DNA of 21,411 nucleotides, taken from positions 13,826 through 35,236 of IMG/VR virus record IMGVR_UViG_3300030103_000168. One strand, 5' to 3'. This DNA comes from a virus. The notes beneath the pieces are model-generated. The model saw nothing but the letters and a program-made list of their open reading frames with translations, did no database searches and was not told the DNA's origin. Both the position numbers and the translations under genes were made by a program. Shown one piece after another: positions 1,112-18,558 of this stretch (position 1 is its first letter; each line of letters begins with the position of its first letter).

Positions 1112-3496
1112 TTATCCTATTAAATGCCCTGAAAAGTTACTTTCTTGGTGTATAGTATAACCACCTGAATTTCCTGAAAGAACAGCTACCCCTACTTGAT
1201 TTCCAGAACCTAAATATACAGTCCAAGATGTTGTCATACTATAATATTGGTCATCGAGGGAATCAGGTCCATAAATAGCATGACCTTGACCATAACCAGA
1301 TTGAGAGGTACTTGGAGAGGTTCCTGTATAAAATGCAATTCTCATAAAACCACCGCCAGTATAACCATCAATTCTTACATTTGTTGAAAAACTATACCAA
1401 CCAGCAACAGGAGCAGTATATCTTCCAGTACTAGTACTGTATCCTCCTCCTTGTTCTAAAGTAGTAAAAACAACACCTACATGAGTATTACCACTTGCAG
1501 TCGGATTACTAGTTCCTCTAGCCCAAAATGCTCCGTTTGCAGCACTTATTCTTGGTTTTGTTACAAGTCCATTTTGGTCAATATTAAAAACTTCAGTACC
1601 ACCTTGTTCTATTACAAAATCACATACACCTGAAGAAGCAGTATTTGATAAACCAAAATTACCAGCATTGTCATCTAAGAAAAATTTACATCTTCTATTA
1701 TTAGAACCCTCGATAACATTTAAAGTTAAGGCTACTTCTTGATTGTTTGTAGTAGAGCCTATAGTAAAATTTCTATCAGGACTACCTACTGTTGTACTAT
1801 CTGTTGTGCCTAAAAATAAATTACCTGAAGCATTAATACGCATTCTCTCCCCATCAACGCCACCAAAGGTATATCCTGTATAACTACTTTGAGTTCCATG
1901 AAAATCTAAAAATCCAGTTGAAGAATTTCTACCTATTTTATATTCTTCTGATTCTGCTGTTCTCAATCTTAACTGATCTGAAGTTGTTCCTAAAATATCT
2001 AATTTTGCATTTGGAGATGCAGTTCCAATTCCAATTTTTCCATCTTCATGTATTGATATTGCTCTTGTACCACCATTAATACCAATATCTAAATAATCAT
2101 CAGCACCAGTACCTGATTGCACCGCCATAGACCATGCTTCATTACCTGAGTGTGTGACCTCTAAAAAGTTACCACCACCTGATGCAATTGTTTGAACTAT
2201 TTTACTACCTGAAGCACCTGTAAAATGTCCTGAACTATCAATACGCCATCTTTCTGCTGTATTCGTGCCACCTGAAGCTGTGTAGAACAACATATCAGAC
2301 GCATTTGTGCCTGTGTTATAAGTTGTCCTTATGCTTGTGTTTCCGTATTTAGCTCCATTGTAAATTTCTCTGTAGCCTTCTAATAAAAACTCTGTTCCAC
2401 TTACGCCTGTGCTATCTCCTACTGATACATGACCACCTAAAACTGATAGCTTTTCAGTAGGACTACTCGTTCCAATTCCAACACGATTATTAGTAGAGTC
2501 TACAACTAAAGTGCTTGTATCAACTGTTAAGTTGGCTGACATCTTTACATCGCCAACAATATCCACGGGCACGGATGGTGAAGCAGTTCCTAGGCCTACA
2601 CGAGAGTTAGAGTTATCTACAACAAAAGTGGGTGAGTCAAAAGCAACATCGTTAGATCCTACGGTCAAAGTGCCAGGCATAGTAATGTTGCCCGAAAGTT
2701 TTGCACTAGTTATAGTGCCGTCGCTTGGTGTTCCAATATTTACTGGGTTTATTACATAAACTGTTACGCCCCTACCAGCTATGACGCCTGTAGTTATAGT
2801 CAAAGTGTTGTTAGAGATAGTGTAAGCGTCTTGGTCTTGAAAGACGCCGTCTACAAAAACTATTAGGTTTGTTTCAGCTGCTGGAGTATCAGATAAAGTA
2901 AAGTCTGTTTGTGCACTGCCCCCTACATCTGCTGCGGTAAAAGAATCTACAGTTAAGTTAGAAGACTGTAAATTAATAAGATTATCTACTATGACTTCTA
3001 AGGCCATACCATTTGGGGGTGCAGCATCAAAAGTAAGAGTAGAGCTAGAAAAAGATATAGTGTTATGGTGTTGTAGTACACCATTTAAGAAAACCATGGC
3101 ATTGCCCTCTACACCAGGGTCTATACCTATGTCATAACTTGTTGCGCCACCAGAAGTGGTTGCATTAAAAACTGTTTGATTTGCAGATTTAGCTGCAATG
3201 TTTTCTTGAATTGTTTCAAGAACTCCCGCAGTAAGCCTAAGTTCAGCTGCGTCACCCGAACTAAAGGCCCTAGCCGTAGTGCTTTCTTGGGCACGAACAA
3301 TAGTTAAAGTGTTACTTGATCTTGCAGTAACTTTTACTATCTCATTATTTGTACCGTCGTCAAACGTACAGAAGAAGAACTCTCCTGCAGCTAAGCTTGG
3401 AAATACACTACCGTCTGTTACTGTAGCGCTTGTCGCACTATTAGTTAGACTAGATCCAAGCGTTGTTTTGGCATTGTTCTTAAAAACAATTCCCAT
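1112..3496 (-). CDS. Tail fibre protein with GIGT repeats and C1q-like tip
   Basis: 794 residues, ATG start preceded by AGGAGA about 10 bases upstream. Domains in order: a conserved beta-rich N-terminal domain (about 1-97, start MGIVFKNNAKTTLGSS) that probably docks to the tail; two tandem domains of about 75 residues (about 105-255), both containing a V-F-[LV]-[ND]-G-V-[LF]-Q core, typical of podovirus fibre shafts; a shaft with repeats such as NNRVGIGTSSPTEKLSVLG, DGKIGIGTASPNAKLDILG and ERMRINASGNLFLGT; and a C-terminal domain (about 655-794) with the TAPVAGWYSFSTNV strand and a final NFSGHLIG, resembling the C1q/TNF jelly roll found at the tips of some phage fibres. It belongs to a run of five tail-tip genes and probably contributes to receptor binding. 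The DNA coding for the C-terminal two thirds is more AT-rich than that coding for the N-terminus, suggesting a mosaic gene. Confidence 0.8.
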   Translation of the reverse strand: MGIVFKNNAKTTLGSSLTNSATSATVTDGSVFPSLAAGEFFFCTFDDGTNNEIVKVTARSSNTLTIVRAQESTTARAFSSGDAAELRLTAGVLETIQENIAAKSANQTVFNATTSGGATSYDIGIDPGVEGNAMVFLNGVLQHHNTISFSSSTLTFDAAPPNGMALEVIVDNLINLQSSNLTVDSFTAADVGGSAQTDFTLSDTPAAETNLIVFVDGVFQDQDAYTISNNTLTITTGVIAGRGVTVYVINPVNIGTPSDGTITSAKLSGNITMPGTLTVGSNDVAFDSPTFVVDNSNSRVGLGTASPSVPVDIVGDVKMSANLTVDTSTLVVDSTNNRVGIGTSSPTEKLSVLGGHVSVGDSTGVSGTEFLLEGYREIYNGAKYGNTSIRTTYNTGTNASDMLFYTASGGTNTAERWRIDSSGHFTGASGSKIVQTIASGGGNFLEVTHSGNEAWSMAVQSGTGADDYLDIGINGGTRAISIHEDGKIGIGTASPNAKLDILGTTSDQLRLRTAESEEYKIGRNSSTGFLDFHGTQSSYTGYTFGGVDGERMRINASGNLFLGTTDSTTVGSPDRNFTIGSTTNNQEVALTLNVIEGSNNRRCKFFLDDNAGNFGLSNTASSGVCDFVIEQGGTEVFNIDQNGLVTKPRISAANGAFWARGTSNPTASGNTHVGVVFTTLEQGGGYSTSTGRYTAPVAGWYSFSTNVRIDGYTGGGFMRIAFYTGTSPSTSQSGYGQGHAIYGPDSLDDQYYSMTTSWTVYLGSGNQVGVAVLSGNSGGYTIHQESNFSGHLIG

Positions 3497-3955: not shown

Positions 3956-5698
3956 TTAATTTAAAACACTAGTATTTAAGACAGATGTATTCAGTATGCT
4001 TCCACCACCGGGAACAAACAGAATCTCAACTGACTCAGTTATTGTAGCACTATCTGTAAAAGATGTGTCAAAAGATAAACCCAAACTTTCTGAAAGGCTG
4101 GGTGTATCAGCAAAGGGATCTACAGGCCCTATTGCTAAACTTGGTGAGTCTGAAAGACTAAAAGCATCTACAAAAGCCGAATTTTCGCCTACAAAATTAA
4201 AAGAAAGGCTTTCTGACATAGTAATCGTGTCTGTTATGGCAGGTTTAGTTATAGAAAACACGGGAACATCTGTTACACTAAACACGTTGCTTTTATTTAA
4301 ACCTGATTCAGTAGCTAGATTATCTTCTGCACTAGCTAAGTCATCTAAAGCATAGGCATCTGTAAAAGTTCTTTGGTAAGTAACAGCCCTAGCTAGGCTT
4401 TCTGCTATATTAGGAGCGTCAGAAAGCGGTCTTTCAAAACTTTTTGCTGGTACATCTAACATCAACATATCCCCAGCACTCGCAAGAGACGAGTTTACCT
4501 CTCCTCCCATGCCAGAATGATTAGTACAATAATAATATAATGTGCTAGACGTAGACCCAGTTACTTGTATTCTTGTGTAAGCACCAGAAGATCCTGGCGT
4601 TCCATTGGTTGTAACTCCTGTTGTATATTCTGTTCCGCTTGCGTGGCTACCATTTGAGGTTTCACTAAATCTAAAAGGATGATTAGAATTACTAGAATCT
4701 GACTGTTCAAAAGTATATGTATTACCTGTTAACAGGTGCACTATAGGAGTTATAACCCCATCTATATAATATTTATTACCAGAGCCATGGTTGTTTACCC
4801 CGGTTGCTACAGTCACTGCAAACGTAGTATCTCCATCATCTTGAACAGATGTTTCAGCTCCCATTCCACTATGATTACTACAGTAGTAATGTAAATCAGG
4901 AGTAGAAGAACTTACTACAATCCTAGTATAAGCTCCTGCAGATCCAGGTGTACCGTTTACAGTTACGTCTGTAGTGTACGCACTACCTGAGTTATGAGTG
5001 CCGTTTCCTGTAGTAGAAAACCTAAAAGGATGATTAGAATTACTTGAGTCTGACTGGTCAAAAGTGTATGTAATACTTTCATTTAAAATTAATCCGGGAC
5101 TAGGTAATCCATCTATGTAAAACTTATTACCTGATCCGTAAACATTAGTGCCCGTAGCTACAGTAACTGTGTAAGTTTTAGTTGTAGGCACGCTAGAAGA
5201 ATCGTCAACAGCTTTACCCACATCCTTTGCATCAGACTCAGATATAGTCGTGGTATCAGCTTTACTTAGCCCTACAGACAGGACTTCAGAATCACTAAAA
5301 CCGTAACTATCGGCAAGATCTCTAAAATATTGTACTGTTTTACTAAGTTCTTCAGTTACCGAGGTAGTGTCTGCAAGTGCTTTGTCTAACGCTTTGGCTA
5401 ATTCTTCACTAACTATTGGCGTGTCGCTTGCAGCTTTGCCAAAGTCGAATACGTCCGAATCAGTAAAACCAAAGGACTCTGCGTTAGGTGAGTTGTATTG
5501 AGTGCTAAAGTAAAGGTTTTTGGTGTCTGCGTCTATGAAAACATCTGCAGCAGTAAGTTGTTGAAATGCAACGATTTGTTGCATGTCTATGAATTGTACT
5601 GTGGTTTTTAGATGTTCAAATAAGCTTACAGCTTCTGTAGAATCTGTCTGTATTACCAGCTTTATCTGCTGGTAGTCTACTGTAAACTTGAATGCCAT
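3956..5698 (-). CDS. Tail-region protein with two cupredoxin-like domains and Asp/Ser repeats
   Basis: 580 residues; ATG start overlaps the preceding stop by one base (TAATG), with no clear ribosome site, so translation is probably coupled. Residues 1-65 form an N-terminal domain of unknown type. Residues 78-168 and 420-560 consist of degenerate repeats of about 20 residues with a [SAT]D-x(3-4)-[IVL]-[ST]-E-[SE]-L core (ADTTSVTEEL, SDAPNIAESL, ADTPSLSESL). Between them lie two similar domains (about 175-283 and 292-401), each with a beta-rich body, an SNHPFRFS strand, a YTRI strand and a terminal YYC[ST]NHSGMG. The His (223, 340), Cys (273, 391), His (276, 394) and Met (279, 397) have the order and C-x2-H-x2-M spacing of the type-1 copper site of amicyanin. 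The protein ends in a short L-N-T-S-V repeat. Its position in the fibre cluster suggests a virion surface protein. Copper binding is inferred; the fold could be used only for adhesion. Confidence 0.72.
   Translation of the reverse strand: MAFKFTVDYQQIKLVIQTDSTEAVSLFEHLKTTVQFIDMQQIVAFQQLTAADVFIDADTKNLYFSTQYNSPNAESFGFTDSDVFDFGKAASDTPIVSEELAKALDKALADTTSVTEELSKTVQYFRDLADSYGFSDSEVLSVGLSKADTTTISESDAKDVGKAVDDSSSVPTTKTYTVTVATGTNVYGSGNKFYIDGLPSPGLILNESITYTFDQSDSSNSNHPFRFSTTGNGTHNSGSAYTTDVTVNGTPGSAGAYTRIVVSSSTPDLHYYCSNHSGMGAETSVQDDGDTTFAVTVATGVNNHGSGNKYYIDGVITPIVHLLTGNTYTFEQSDSSNSNHPFRFSETSNGSHASGTEYTTGVTTNGTPGSSGAYTRIQVTGSTSSTLYYYCTNHSGMGGEVNSSLASAGDMLMLDVPAKSFERPLSDAPNIAESLARAVTYQRTFTDAYALDDLASAEDNLATESGLNKSNVFSVTDVPVFSITKPAITDTITMSESLSFNFVGENSAFVDAFSLSDSPSLAIGPVDPFADTPSLSESLGLSFDTSFTDSATITESVEILFVPGGGSILNTSVLNTSVLN
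4496..4825 (-). repeat. Cupredoxin-like domain 2 (coding repeat)
   Basis: Residues 292-401 of the same protein. Candidate ligands H340, C391, H394 and M397 with the same spacing. The distance between equivalent residues of the two domains is 117-118. Protein similarity is high while third codon positions differ, so the duplication is not recent. Confidence 0.75.
4850..5176 (-). repeat. Cupredoxin-like domain 1 (coding repeat)
   Basis: Residues 175-283 of the 580-residue protein. Candidate copper ligands H223 in SNHPFRFS, then C273, H276 and M279 in YYCSNHSGM. Aligned with domain 2 it keeps all four ligands, the G-S-G-N-K-[FY]-Y-I-D-G start and the N-G-T-P-G-S-[AS]-G-A-Y-T-R-I block. Confidence 0.75.
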
Positions 5699-6072
5699 TA
5701 ATCAAAGTCGTCACGTACTTTAAATTTTATTAGGTCTTGTACTGTTTGTATGTTTCCATCTGACTTTGTAAACTCAAGTTCTCCCTCAAAAGTACCTGCA
5801 GTTGACCATGTTCCCGATGGGAAAGCTAAGATACAAGTGCCTGAACTAGGGGCAGAAAGTGTAGCTGTAATAGTAGATAACACTGTAGTTTTACCTACTT
5901 CTCTTATTCTTAACTTTACAGCACCGCCTGTTAAATTTACAGGAGCCCAAGTCGTACTATCTTCTATATCTAAAGTAGCACCAGAGGCAGCAGTATTGCT
6001 GTCTTTTAAGTTAAAAGTAAGTTCAGGGAGTGTATCTCCTACTACTAATTTTATTGTGTCTGAATACGCCAT
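5698..6072 (-). CDS. Small beta-rich tail protein, BppU N-terminal-like
   Basis: 124 residues, ATG start, 12 bases after the stop of the giant upstream gene, with only a weak upstream AGGT. The sequence opens with IKLVVGDTLPELTFNLKDSN, has a central PVNLTGGAVKLRIREVGKTT, and ends with GTFEGELEFTKSDGNIQTVQ and a short FKVRDD strand. A G-D-T start, a D-L-T-G-like turn followed by a strand, and a late [FY]-E-G-E-L-x-F-x-x-x-D-G motif are what I associate with the N-terminal immunoglobulin-like domain of phage baseplate upper proteins (BppU family) and similar small tail proteins. The likely role is a connector between tail and fibres. No signal peptide or catalytic motif. It lies between ejection and fibre genes and overlaps the following gene by one base. 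Confidence 0.55.
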   Translation of the reverse strand: MAYSDTIKLVVGDTLPELTFNLKDSNTAASGATLDIEDSTTWAPVNLTGGAVKLRIREVGKTTVLSTITATLSAPSSGTCILAFPSGTWSTAGTFEGELEFTKSDGNIQTVQDLIKFKVRDDFD

Positions 6073-6084
6073 AACTAATTATAC

Positions 6085-9000
6085 CTATAATGAAGAATAA
6101 AAGGGAGTTATGTCTTTTACCCTTAAATTTCCTGTTATTAAATCATACCCTTTTTCTACAGTGGGTCCAAGTGGACCTACCCACATAGGATCTCCATATC
6201 TTTTATCTTCCATAAACAAAGGAAGTGCTAAAGTAAAAGGCCCAAGCACCCCGGATCTATCTATAATCTCTGTACTATACTCACCCCAATCCATGCTTCG
6301 TGACCTTCTGTAGTTTTTATCTTCTGGGCTTACACCTGGTAAAACCCAAGCTAATCCAACTTTAAATCTTTCACGTAAATCAAACCCTAACATAGTTAAT
6401 GGTAGTAAAGTTGCAGCACCTAAAAACAAAGGTACAGCTGCACCTTTTAACCCAGCCTCTGTATATCTAGCCTGCATTTCATTTATAGAACCACCTACGA
6501 TAGTTTTACCATAAGCGTAGAAGAAAGATTTAAGTTGCCACACTAAAGCAAACCTAGGGTCAGAGGCCCAAATGGGTCTTTCTGCAGCATTTGGCCTTAC
6601 TATAGACTCATCTACAAACCTAGCTAATGCTAATTTTATTTTTTCGTTGCCAGCTTCATTAATATTACCACCAGCCCAGTTGTTCACTTCTTCTGCTGTT
6701 AACCCTAACTCTTTTAAATATCTTATTGATCTTTGATTACCGGCTGCAGCTTTTTTAGCGTTGTCTAATAAAAATGCTTTACCCATACCTGCTGCAAATA
6801 CTCTAGTAAACTTAGTAAACTGTTCTAATCCTATACCCCTAAAGAACTTATTAGTAAACTTTTTAGTATTTTCACTTGTATATTCTAACTCGCCAGCACC
6901 CACAAAGGTTTCCATCATTGCATCAATACCAACAACTCCTATATCTTTAGCTAATGTTGCTGCTTCATTTGGGTCTTTTATCATATTAAAAATAGTACTG
7001 GCTGCAGTTCGTAAGGCTCCAAAGTCTTTAGAACGCAGTATTGGTCCTGCTAAATCTGGGAAAGAAGCAAAAGTAGCAAAAGTTAAAAGTGTAACTACGT
7101 TAAAAGCTAATCCTATTTGATTAGCGCCCCTAAACATTCCACTAGAGATTGGAGTTATTTTACCTAACATAGCCATAACTGCTTGCTCAGCTAGTTCTCT
7201 TTGCTTAGGGTTTTCTATTTGACTAAGTAACTCAGCAATTCTTTCTGGTCCACCTCTTTTATTTAATTCTGTTCTTTTTACTGTATTATCAATATATTTT
7301 TGCAACGCTCTGTGTGGGTCTTCTAATAACCCTGCGTCTCTTAAACGTTTAGTAGGTACATTTTTATAAAGAGCTGCTCTAGACTTCAGTAAACCTATGT
7401 TATATTTAGCGCCATCACTATCTATTTCTATCTCATTAGATATATCTGCAAGTGTAGCTTCTACTGCTTCATTAGCTTCTTGTTCACTAAGACCATCGTT
7501 AAACTCCATAAGTAAGTTTACTAGTTCTTGTTTCTTTTCAGGGTTACCTGCTACTTCTTCTATAAGTAAAGAACGTGGGAAGAAGTTAGAAAGTTTACCT
7601 ATACCTATTTTTTCCAACCCTAATGAATCGTAATGTTCTGTTAGCCACTCTCTAATTCTTGCAGCTTGTGGCCCTAGTTGTTCTGTAGGTATAGTATTAT
7701 CCTCAGCTTGTAAAAGAATATCCATTTTTTCTTGGGTCATTTCACCACTCTTACGCACTCCTAGAATATCTTGTATTTGAGTCATTTTAGCTCTAGCTAT
7801 AGTAGTCGTTGCAGTAAGTAGTCCTATTGCTTCTGTAGTTTGTGGCTGTCCTCTAAACATTTGAGCTAATGCTTTACCACCTTTTCCATAGCCTCTAAGT
7901 AAATCATCTTTAGCAAGTAAAACCATTTTTATAAACTCGCCCACACCAAGGGCTGCCCCTGTTTCTCCTGTTTCTTTTAATCTATTTACCGTTTGCTGTA
8001 TTTTTTGTGGGGCTTTGGGGTCACCTAATGGTATTTCTTTACCTATCTTCTCTACCGTTTGTTGTATTTCTGCACTTGCTAGATACTTTGTCATAAAATG
8101 ACCGGGGTCAGTGTTTATTCTTTTTAACTCTACTACATAATCAGCAAAAGCAGGACTTACTCCATATCTTCTAGTAGCAAAACCGCTAAACTCTTTTACA
8201 AAAGCTTGTATCTTACCTGCTAAACGTTTAAAGAAAGAGTCTGTTTGATTTTGTGCTTTTTTTGTTTCATCAAGAAGAAAAGAAGCTACTTGGTCTGACA
8301 TCCATTCTGTAAACCCTTGTTCATCATTTGTATATTGAGCAGTGTCATTACCTTCTCTGTCTTGATTAAATGCATCAAGCAAACCTTGTCTTAACTTAGG
8401 TATATTCAAAGAGTTTTCTAATTGTTCTCTTACAAAAGAATGGCCTATCTCATGGGCTACAACAAATGCCCTAGCTCCTTGTTCTGCTTTGTTAAATCCT
8501 TCTCTAGTTTGCACAAGAAGAACATCAAAGTTTGCGCCTTCAATATTTAAGCCTCTAGTAGATTCTCCGCTATCTGGGGCTAGTCTTCTTAAACCATTTT
8601 GAACTCTGTTTAGTAAATCTGCATCTCCTTCTAAAGACTCTAAAGTAATATCCTCTGTAGTACTAAATACTTTGTAGGCTTTTTTCAAACCTAGTTTAGT
8701 ATTAGCGATACGTTGAAAGTCTTTAAGAAAAGTAGCATCTAAGTGTTGTTCAACCACACTAGTAAAAGAAACACCGGGTTTAGGGCCCCCTGTTTTTGTA
8801 GAAGACCCTTTCGCGTAGGGATTTTTAAATAGTCTTCTATTAAACTCATTTTCTATTCTTTCGTCTGGTGTAGGTTCTTTTCCACCTTCTTTTTCTTCTG
8901 CTACTTGTTCTATATCAAGGTTGTCAAACCCAACTTCGTTTGCTCCCTCTTTAACATTAACACTAGATGCTCTACCCCTTTGTAAATCATTTAAAGTAAA

Positions 9001-17386: not shown

Positions 17387-18532
17387 TTAGAATGCGACAT
17401 CTAATCTTATAACACCAAAGTCTTCAACTTGACCTGTGTGGTCAGAATTGTACTTAGGCTTTTTAAGACCAAATATTTTACCAATTGATATACCGTTTTG
17501 GTTTCCATAGTCAAATGTGTCTTCAACTATTTCAGGAATACCAATGTCAGCCATAGCTAATGCTTGAGCTCCGCAGAATAAACATGCAGAACCATTAACA
17601 TCAGCGTCAGCACCCCATTTGTATCCAGCAGCACCAGCATTTGATGATGTACCAGTTAAGGCGCCAGTTGTGTTAAACACATGTCTGAACTCATGTACCA
17701 TGATTCCATCAACCATTAAGCTTGATGAACCAGAGAATAAGCTAGACTGAGGTCCTCTGATACCAGCTTGTCTTACGTTAGCAAGGAAGTCTGAATCGAG
17801 TTTTAAATCAGCCATAACTTGTGGTGTTACGAAGAGATGATATGTCTCGTCGTTACCCGCACCTCTTAGACCTCTGATGTATTGATCTTTTGCATAAGCT
17901 TTTAGATCAACAATAGCACCATAAGTTAGTTTGTCAGCTGCAACAGTTGCAGTAACATCACCAGCTACGATACCATTTGTAGCATCAAATCTTCTATGTC
18001 TATTTGAGGTAGGAGCAGTTACGTCAGATGAGAACGCAAGGTCACCAAGATTCTGTCCAGAATTTTGAACAGGTCTTAATGCACCGTTGTTCTTAAGTGT
18101 GTAACCGATACCACTTAGAGTTAAGAATGCTAATTGGTCCATTCTGTCAGCCATTGCGTAAGCAAGTGCATCTCTAGAATGTTCCCTAAAGTTCACAACT
18201 GATTTTTGATCATTCATTCTACCTGAAAGTCTGTTCGCAAATCTTAGTTGATCAAGTTGTACAACAATGTCGAAAGCTCTTAATGACTCTTCATTACCCT
18301 CTAAAGTATTGTCTCCAACGATACCATCACCAGTCATATCGGCTAAAAGTGTTAATACAGCTCTAGCTCCTTTTTCTGATTGAGTAAGTTCAGATATAGT
18401 CTGAACCATAGCATTGGATCCGCTACCTGCGAATTGGTTGATGAAGGACATATTCCTAGCGACACGCCAAAAATCACGTGACCAGATGGTAAGTTGTTCA
18501 CTGGTCAACGCGGCAAAGTTTGTATTTGCCAT
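17387..18532 (-). CDS. Major capsid protein, N4-gp56 family
   Basis: 381 residues from the ATG at 18532. A TTG 18 bases upstream in the same frame is part of the ribosome site and not the start; AAGGAG lies 7 bases before the ATG. The N-terminus MANTNFAALTSEQLTIWSRD, the segments VQTISELTQSEKGARAVLTL, LADMTGDGIVGDNTLEGNEE, FANRLSGRMNDQKSVVNFRE, and ADRMDQLAFLTLSGI are the conserved blocks of the N4-gp56/DUF4043 major capsid family (HK97 fold), and the length fits. It forms the capsid shell on the scaffold. It is the only gene here with its own candidate promoter, leader and terminator, which fits the need for hundreds of copies per virion. The C-terminal part (GVIRLDVAF end) is complete. Confidence 0.93.
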   Translation of the reverse strand: MANTNFAALTSEQLTIWSRDFWRVARNMSFINQFAGSGSNAMVQTISELTQSEKGARAVLTLLADMTGDGIVGDNTLEGNEESLRAFDIVVQLDQLRFANRLSGRMNDQKSVVNFREHSRDALAYAMADRMDQLAFLTLSGIGYTLKNNGALRPVQNSGQNLGDLAFSSDVTAPTSNRHRRFDATNGIVAGDVTATVAADKLTYGAIVDLKAYAKDQYIRGLRGAGNDETYHLFVTPQVMADLKLDSDFLANVRQAGIRGPQSSLFSGSSSLMVDGIMVHEFRHVFNTTGALTGTSSNAGAAGYKWGADADVNGSACLFCGAQALAMADIGIPEIVEDTFDYGNQNGISIGKIFGLKKPKYNSDHTGQVEDFGVIRLDVAF

Positions 18533-18539
18533 GATAATT

Positions 18540-18545
18540 CTCCTT
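18540..18545 (-). promoter_or_regulatory. Ribosome binding site of the capsid gene
   Basis: AAGGAG on the minus strand, 7 bases before the ATG at 18532. It decides the start: the upstream in-frame TTG at 18550 would begin before this site and is not a credible initiator. It lies about 14 bases after the T run of the terminator-like hairpin of the leader, so access to it could depend on the leader fold. Confidence 0.8.
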
Positions 18546-18558
18546 ATCAAAGTTGTTT

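Follow-up and report, generated by a model that had tools for sequence, protein, structure and literature searches.

Tandem cupredoxin-like domains with a complete predicted type-1 copper ligand set in a tail-region protein of a marine tailed phage

Amicyanin, plastocyanin and pseudoazurin (PF00127) are free periplasmic electron carriers that hold copper by an upstream His and by a Cys, a His and a Met of a single loop, and in plastocyanin and amicyanin a Pro precedes the second ligand His. The ligand loop of rusticyanin is longer, and laccases are multi-domain oxidases using the cupredoxin fold. On the phage side, we know of no cupredoxin on T4 gp9, the connector between baseplate and long tail fibre that has a PF07880 N-terminus, and none was found in the literature searched. 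Metal in tail fibres has been described: HxH sites in T4 gp37 and in alterophage R22Y hold iron and were proposed to serve as receptor lures, with a bearing on host uptake and ocean metal cycling (PMC11705849). Cupredoxins and metal in tail fibres are each known; for cupredoxins or blue copper on phage tails no description was found in the open literature, most subscription journals lying outside the search.

The window analyzed here is a stretch of 21,411 nucleotides belonging to a 35,236-base IMG/VR virus record. Between structural genes on its minus strand lies an ORF (3956..5698) for a tail-region protein of 580 aa, which was predicted from its AlphaFold2 models to contain two cupredoxin-like domains in tandem, namely, domain 1 (aa 175-281, 4856..5176, minus strand) and domain 2 (aa 292-399, 4502..4825, minus strand). 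Each has its upstream His in SNHPFRFS and C-x2-H-x2-M in YYC[ST]NHSGM. The ligand positions of domain 1, all on the minus strand, are His223 (5030..5032) and the loop C273-x2-H276-x2-M279 (4862..4882, with C273 at 4880-4882, H276 at 4871-4873 and M279 at 4862-4864). Those of domain 2, on the same strand, are His340 (4679..4681) and C391-x2-H394-x2-M397 (4508..4528, with C391 at 4526-4528, H394 at 4517-4519 and M397 at 4508-4510). In sequence, both domains therefore have the arrangement of a type-1 copper site, that is, an upstream His with Cys, His and Met in one loop. The original prediction of two tandem domains with a full ligand set was borne out by the ORF, the residue positions and the fold prediction, and it was also right that the spacing in both domains is that of amicyanin. 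However, unlike in amicyanin and plastocyanin, Pro is absent between the ligand Cys and the ligand His of the loop C[ST]NHSGM, and these copies are tandem modules in a phage tail protein rather than free electron carriers. Apart from C273 and C391, both at ligand positions, the protein has no Cys.

The domains are flanked by regions with SES-type repeats, an N-terminal one (aa 1-168, 5195..5698, minus strand), conserved among close relatives only, and a C-terminal one (aa 406-580, 3956..4483, minus strand). PHROG tail-fibre families match the 580-aa protein, chiefly via its two domains. The protein resembles the HxH iron fibres in placing metal, here by a predicted copper-type site, in a phage tail fibre, but there His pairs lie along a trimeric fibre, whereas the predicted site here is formed by a single chain. 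An HxH iron fibre was ruled out, as the protein has no HxH and its His residues are found only at positions 29, 223, 235, 270, 276, 304, 321, 340, 352 and 394.

The AlphaFold2 models had a pLDDT of 93.2 and a pTM of 0.85 for domain 1 (19 aligned sequences) and of 88.4 and 0.83 for domain 2 (22 aligned sequences). Compared by Foldseek with the PDB, both domains had rusticyanin in first place, for domain 2 with a probability of 0.99 and with amicyanin reaching up to 0.97. The best E-value for the two domains was 0.017, the others being weaker, and Ig folds also appeared lower down in both lists. The VIA-align matches were 2dv6 for domain 1 (Z 7.4, rmsd 2.5 over 88) and 3x1b for domain 2 (Z 7.8, the maximum, rmsd 2.6 over 90). 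All 50 of the 50 best VIA-align rows for domain 2 were cupredoxin-fold proteins, as were nearly all of the best rows for domain 1, with SO1698 entries and a factor VIII fusion as exceptions lower down. The matches named include Hyphomicrobium nitrite reductase, rusticyanin, laccases, Nitrosopumilus purple cupredoxin and nitrosocyanin. Rusticyanin and the cupredoxin domains of nitrite reductase and laccase are the best structural matches, but their identity to the window domains is about 9-18%. As a Z of at most 7.8 is middling, the argument rests on the uniform identity of the matches and not on the score. The predicted models show the Greek-key beta-sandwich of about 7-8 strands that defines the cupredoxin fold, at Z below 8; in them the Cys ends a late strand, His and Met lie in the next loop and the first His stands just before an earlier strand. 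The structure prediction proposed as a check on the original prediction thus matched both models to cupredoxins. In the BFVD, "beta-sandwich proteins" of Pithovirus and Marseillevirus (A0A481Z6J5, A0A481Z7Q7 and A0A481YY19) structurally resemble the domain.

Neither of the window's domains matched any Pfam model; PF00127 (Copper-bind) matched neither the 580-aa protein nor anything else in its phage record, the amicyanin model TIGR02657 did not match domain 1, and a direct PDB sequence search with a window domain returned no credible match. Relatives do exceed the cut-offs. Bacterial relatives that are 41-44% identical stand above the Copper-bind (plastocyanin/azurin) cut-off of 21.2 bits, namely, L147 from Woeseiaceae (25.1 bits) and L121 from SAR116 (22.6 bits). 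L147 also found plastocyanin in the PDB at an E-value of 7.5e-4, with its YYC..H aligned over the plastocyanin ligand Cys and His. The NCBIfam models for plastocyanin, pseudoazurin and amicyanin match some family members, TIGR02657 matching 1 of 20 (E 0.032), and a cyanophage gp9 domain aligns, weakly, with the nitrite-reductase cupredoxin loop CTLHPWM. Another link is that of the Opitutia relatives L152 and L159, which exceed the cut-off of Pfam At5g54830-like (PF25489), a model that phage gp9 copies match weakly. This domain is named from a plant protein and occurs in DOMON/cytochrome b561 proteins; its link to the window copies is indirect. Since the window copies are without a Pfam match whereas their relatives exceed these cut-offs, the sequence evidence assigns the family to the cupredoxin superfamily, as one separate from PF00127.

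The original prediction argued for selection on the metal site from the two copies alone. At 64-68% identity between domain 1 and domain 2, however, the pair says little on selection, and it is conservation across the family that carries the argument and supports the claim. The conservation set was built from the six-frame ORFs of 321 sequences and comprised 272 distinct rows, in which the upstream His column holds His in 271 and a gap in 1. In every one of the 258 rows that have a residue in each of the four columns, these residues are H-C-H-M, even where identity to the window is as low as 30-40%, and the median pairwise identity of the copies is 51%. The ligand loop is 7 residues long in all 258 of these full copies, 257 of which have a single Cys, and median dN/dS was 0.11 for 537 close copy pairs. 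A chance motif is ruled out by this family-wide conservation and by the shuffled versions of the 580-aa protein, in which C-x2-H-x2-M is present in 0.055%; a disulphide is likewise ruled out, as there is one Cys per copy. The extra conserved His of GTH[GN] (His235 and His352) was also considered as an essential ligand and ruled out, being absent from most copies of the short form of the domain.

The pattern of the genome scan included the ligands, so that the 83 copies it yielded are no test of conservation, and searches with a query lacking the loop or with a ligand-blind profile are fairer. The scan with the loop-less query found the loop kept in 44 of 44. The ligand-blind profile ended before the Cys and had the upstream His masked; at E below 1e-5, C-x2-H-x2-M was kept in 261 of 270 testable copies and gone in 9. 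These nine represent one orthologous domain, found mostly in baseplate-type proteins of about 850 aa. In this cyanophage-type lineage (L301-L320, e.g., aa 141-265 of an L310 ORF), sequence such as APDKIYYFDRT stands in place of the loop; Cys, Met and the second His have gone as a block, while the upstream His was kept. Among annotated phage proteins examined singly, the loop was intact in 13 of 14; in a tail fibre copy of Synechococcus phage S-B05 it has decayed to YQASNVAGMGG, without Cys and His, which makes this copy a natural ligand-less control. The metal site is thus nearly always whole and rarely dropped, and the existence of ligand-less relatives indicates that the fold can live without metal. 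Ligands that vary freely among homologues, which would have spoken against the original prediction, were not seen in this survey, the losses being confined to one baseplate lineage and isolated cases.

The claim that such a domain is unusual on a phage has to be corrected, since scans of IMG/VR and of deposited phages show it to be common in marine phages. With three queries, the related stretches found in IMG/VR numbered 449, at least 585 and 366. Among deposited phages, the long form was present in 54 records, its carriers including phages of Synechococcus and Prochlorococcus, the Methylophilales phage Melnitz and the Pelagibacter phages Baldr, Mosig and HTVC028P. The short form was present in 353 records, nearly all cyanophages; among the matches listed, most are annotated as the baseplate wedge-tail fibre connector (gp9). 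Two gp9 proteins examined whole have T4_gp9_10_N at the N terminus and the cupredoxin-like domain at the C terminus, and the gp9 connectors of cyanophages L326, L327, L329, L330, L334 and L335 end in the short domain with ligands intact. These are homologues of T4 gp9, whereas the 580-aa protein of the window is not gp9. Syn9 and P-SSM2 both carry the domain, the latter at four places.

Cellular copies were found in lipoproteins with cadherin domains (L111, a 520-kb contig), in a SAR86 subtilase-cadherin protein (L131), in flavobacterial proteins of about 4000 aa and in a Cellvibrionales MAG (L154, ORF 5839-6984), whose secreted protein has three tandem domains and a C-terminal hydrophobic anchor. 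A Pelagibacter genome match (L117) was rejected as a cellular copy because its N-terminus is that of a T7 tail fibre (PF03906); the other Pelagibacter genome matches of about this length probably also belong to phages. The partners of the domain include the extracellular cadherin, Big_9 and subtilase domains, T4_gp9_10_N and the T7 tail-fibre N-terminus. In the tree, viral and cellular copies interleave, with poor resolution. Judged by sequence, this is a widespread and unannotated marine domain family of phage tail fibres, of T4-like gp9 connectors and, in marine bacteria, of exported or surface proteins.

The number of domains differs between close relatives. The flanks of relative L037 are 97% and 93% identical to those of the window protein, yet it has one domain as opposed to two, and this domain shares 66% and 73% identity with the two of the window. 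Relative L005 has three domains; its copies 2 and 3 share 87% and 91% identity with the window copies, although its flanks share only 32% and 42% with those of the window protein. The tree groups the L037 copy with L005 copy 1, so that a first reading of L037 as a domain swap was revised: differential loss from a three-copy ancestor fits the tree at least as well. From these identities and the tree, the gain, loss or exchange of domain cassettes appears not to be tied to the rest of the protein, and the metal site stays fixed.

We consider it probable that the domain serves in adhesion or as a connector, as a copper-clamped module on the virion that is loaded with copper after lysis. The firmest part of this proposal is that each domain would bind one copper ion. 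With less certainty, the 580-aa protein would be carried on the virion, be made copper-free in the host cytoplasm and take up copper from seawater after lysis; free copper is scarce in the cytoplasm, where phage proteins are made, which argues for loading outside the cell. Least certainly, copper might fasten the C-terminal loop to the upstream strand and so lock a small, disulphide-free beta-sandwich; in sea-exposed fibres, this could then act as a module for connection or adhesion that is stable and can be interchanged. The extracellular partner domains favor such a clamp or adhesion role over that of a free electron carrier.

The position of the domain on tail fibres and baseplate connectors, and the turnover of copies against conserved flanks, could also be read as host recognition, in which the metal-loaded domain docks on a metal-uptake or cuproprotein receptor of the host outer membrane as a copper "Ferrojan horse". 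In known cupredoxins, however, the ligand set largely buries the copper, the same domain occurs on bacterial surface proteins, and no receptor is known, so that docking seems unlikely to us. In its favor, iron-binding HxH sites in tail fibres have been proposed as receptor lures (PMC11705849). Redox chemistry at the cell surface, i.e., electron transfer or sensing that triggers fibre deployment or tunes adsorption to the host redox state, would agree with the complete type-1 set and its amicyanin loop spacing, with electron-transfer proteins as the best Foldseek matches and with the one group of relatives above the At5g54830 cut-off. Yet no redox partner gene was recognised within the window and the partner domains elsewhere are of the adhesion type, and we regard this role as distinctly improbable.

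The loop-less copies bear on a further reading, namely, that the conserved residues are structural only, or bind zinc or iron, in an Ig-like decoration of cupredoxin descent. The nine baseplate copies and the S-B05 copy without Cys and His are still encoded, and Ig folds do occur lower in the Foldseek lists. On the other hand, four residues fixed in all 258 full copies at a median identity of 51%, with the Cys unpaired, speak against it, and the joint loss of Cys, His and Met in the baseplate lineage is as expected for a shared site; we hold this reading to be unlikely. A copper clamp thus stays our preferred account, and the predictions from sequence and models suggest that many marine virus particles carry copper.

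Few proteins in the sea are as poorly annotated as the tail fibres of marine phages. Should the domains hold copper, they would represent a class of cuproproteins on virus particles for which no description was found, borne by phages of Prochlorococcus, Synechococcus, SAR11 and OM43, and this would bear on adsorption, on the stability of the particles and on the copper chemistry of the ocean. A far-reaching version, which we think quite unlikely, is that, in a large part of the abundant ocean phages, tail fibres and gp9 bear redox-active blue copper that serves to sense or exploit host surface redox state or copper uptake, and that the particles form a pool of ligand-bound seawater copper. The copper reading is directly testable with cultured phages.

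The other genes noted in the window are also on the minus strand. The major head protein (17387-18550; PF13252, phrog_334) has its closest deposited relatives, at 53% identity, in Pseudomonas phage KPP25-like phages, a similarity that links the virus to this Pseudomonas phage group. Two SU10-type adaptors, a 1825-aa virion protein, a 141-aa protein and two tail fibres were also identified. A 124-aa neighbour of the tail-region protein (5698..6072) is weakly BppU_N-like, as in baseplates (PF10651, E 0.0028, below the cut-off), and the neighbouring tail fibre protein at 1112..3496 (phrog_8469) has a C1q-like end, PF00386 being just above the cut-off. Outside the window, the same phage record has a curli cassette on the minus strand at 1359-4380 of L325 (G000:C1:1-13826), with CsgF (PF10614), CsgG (PF03783, E 4e-47), a curlin-repeat-like secreted protein and FecR. 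Such a cassette is known in pelagiphages (PMC9599517) and, in part, in Melnitz (PMC9004378).
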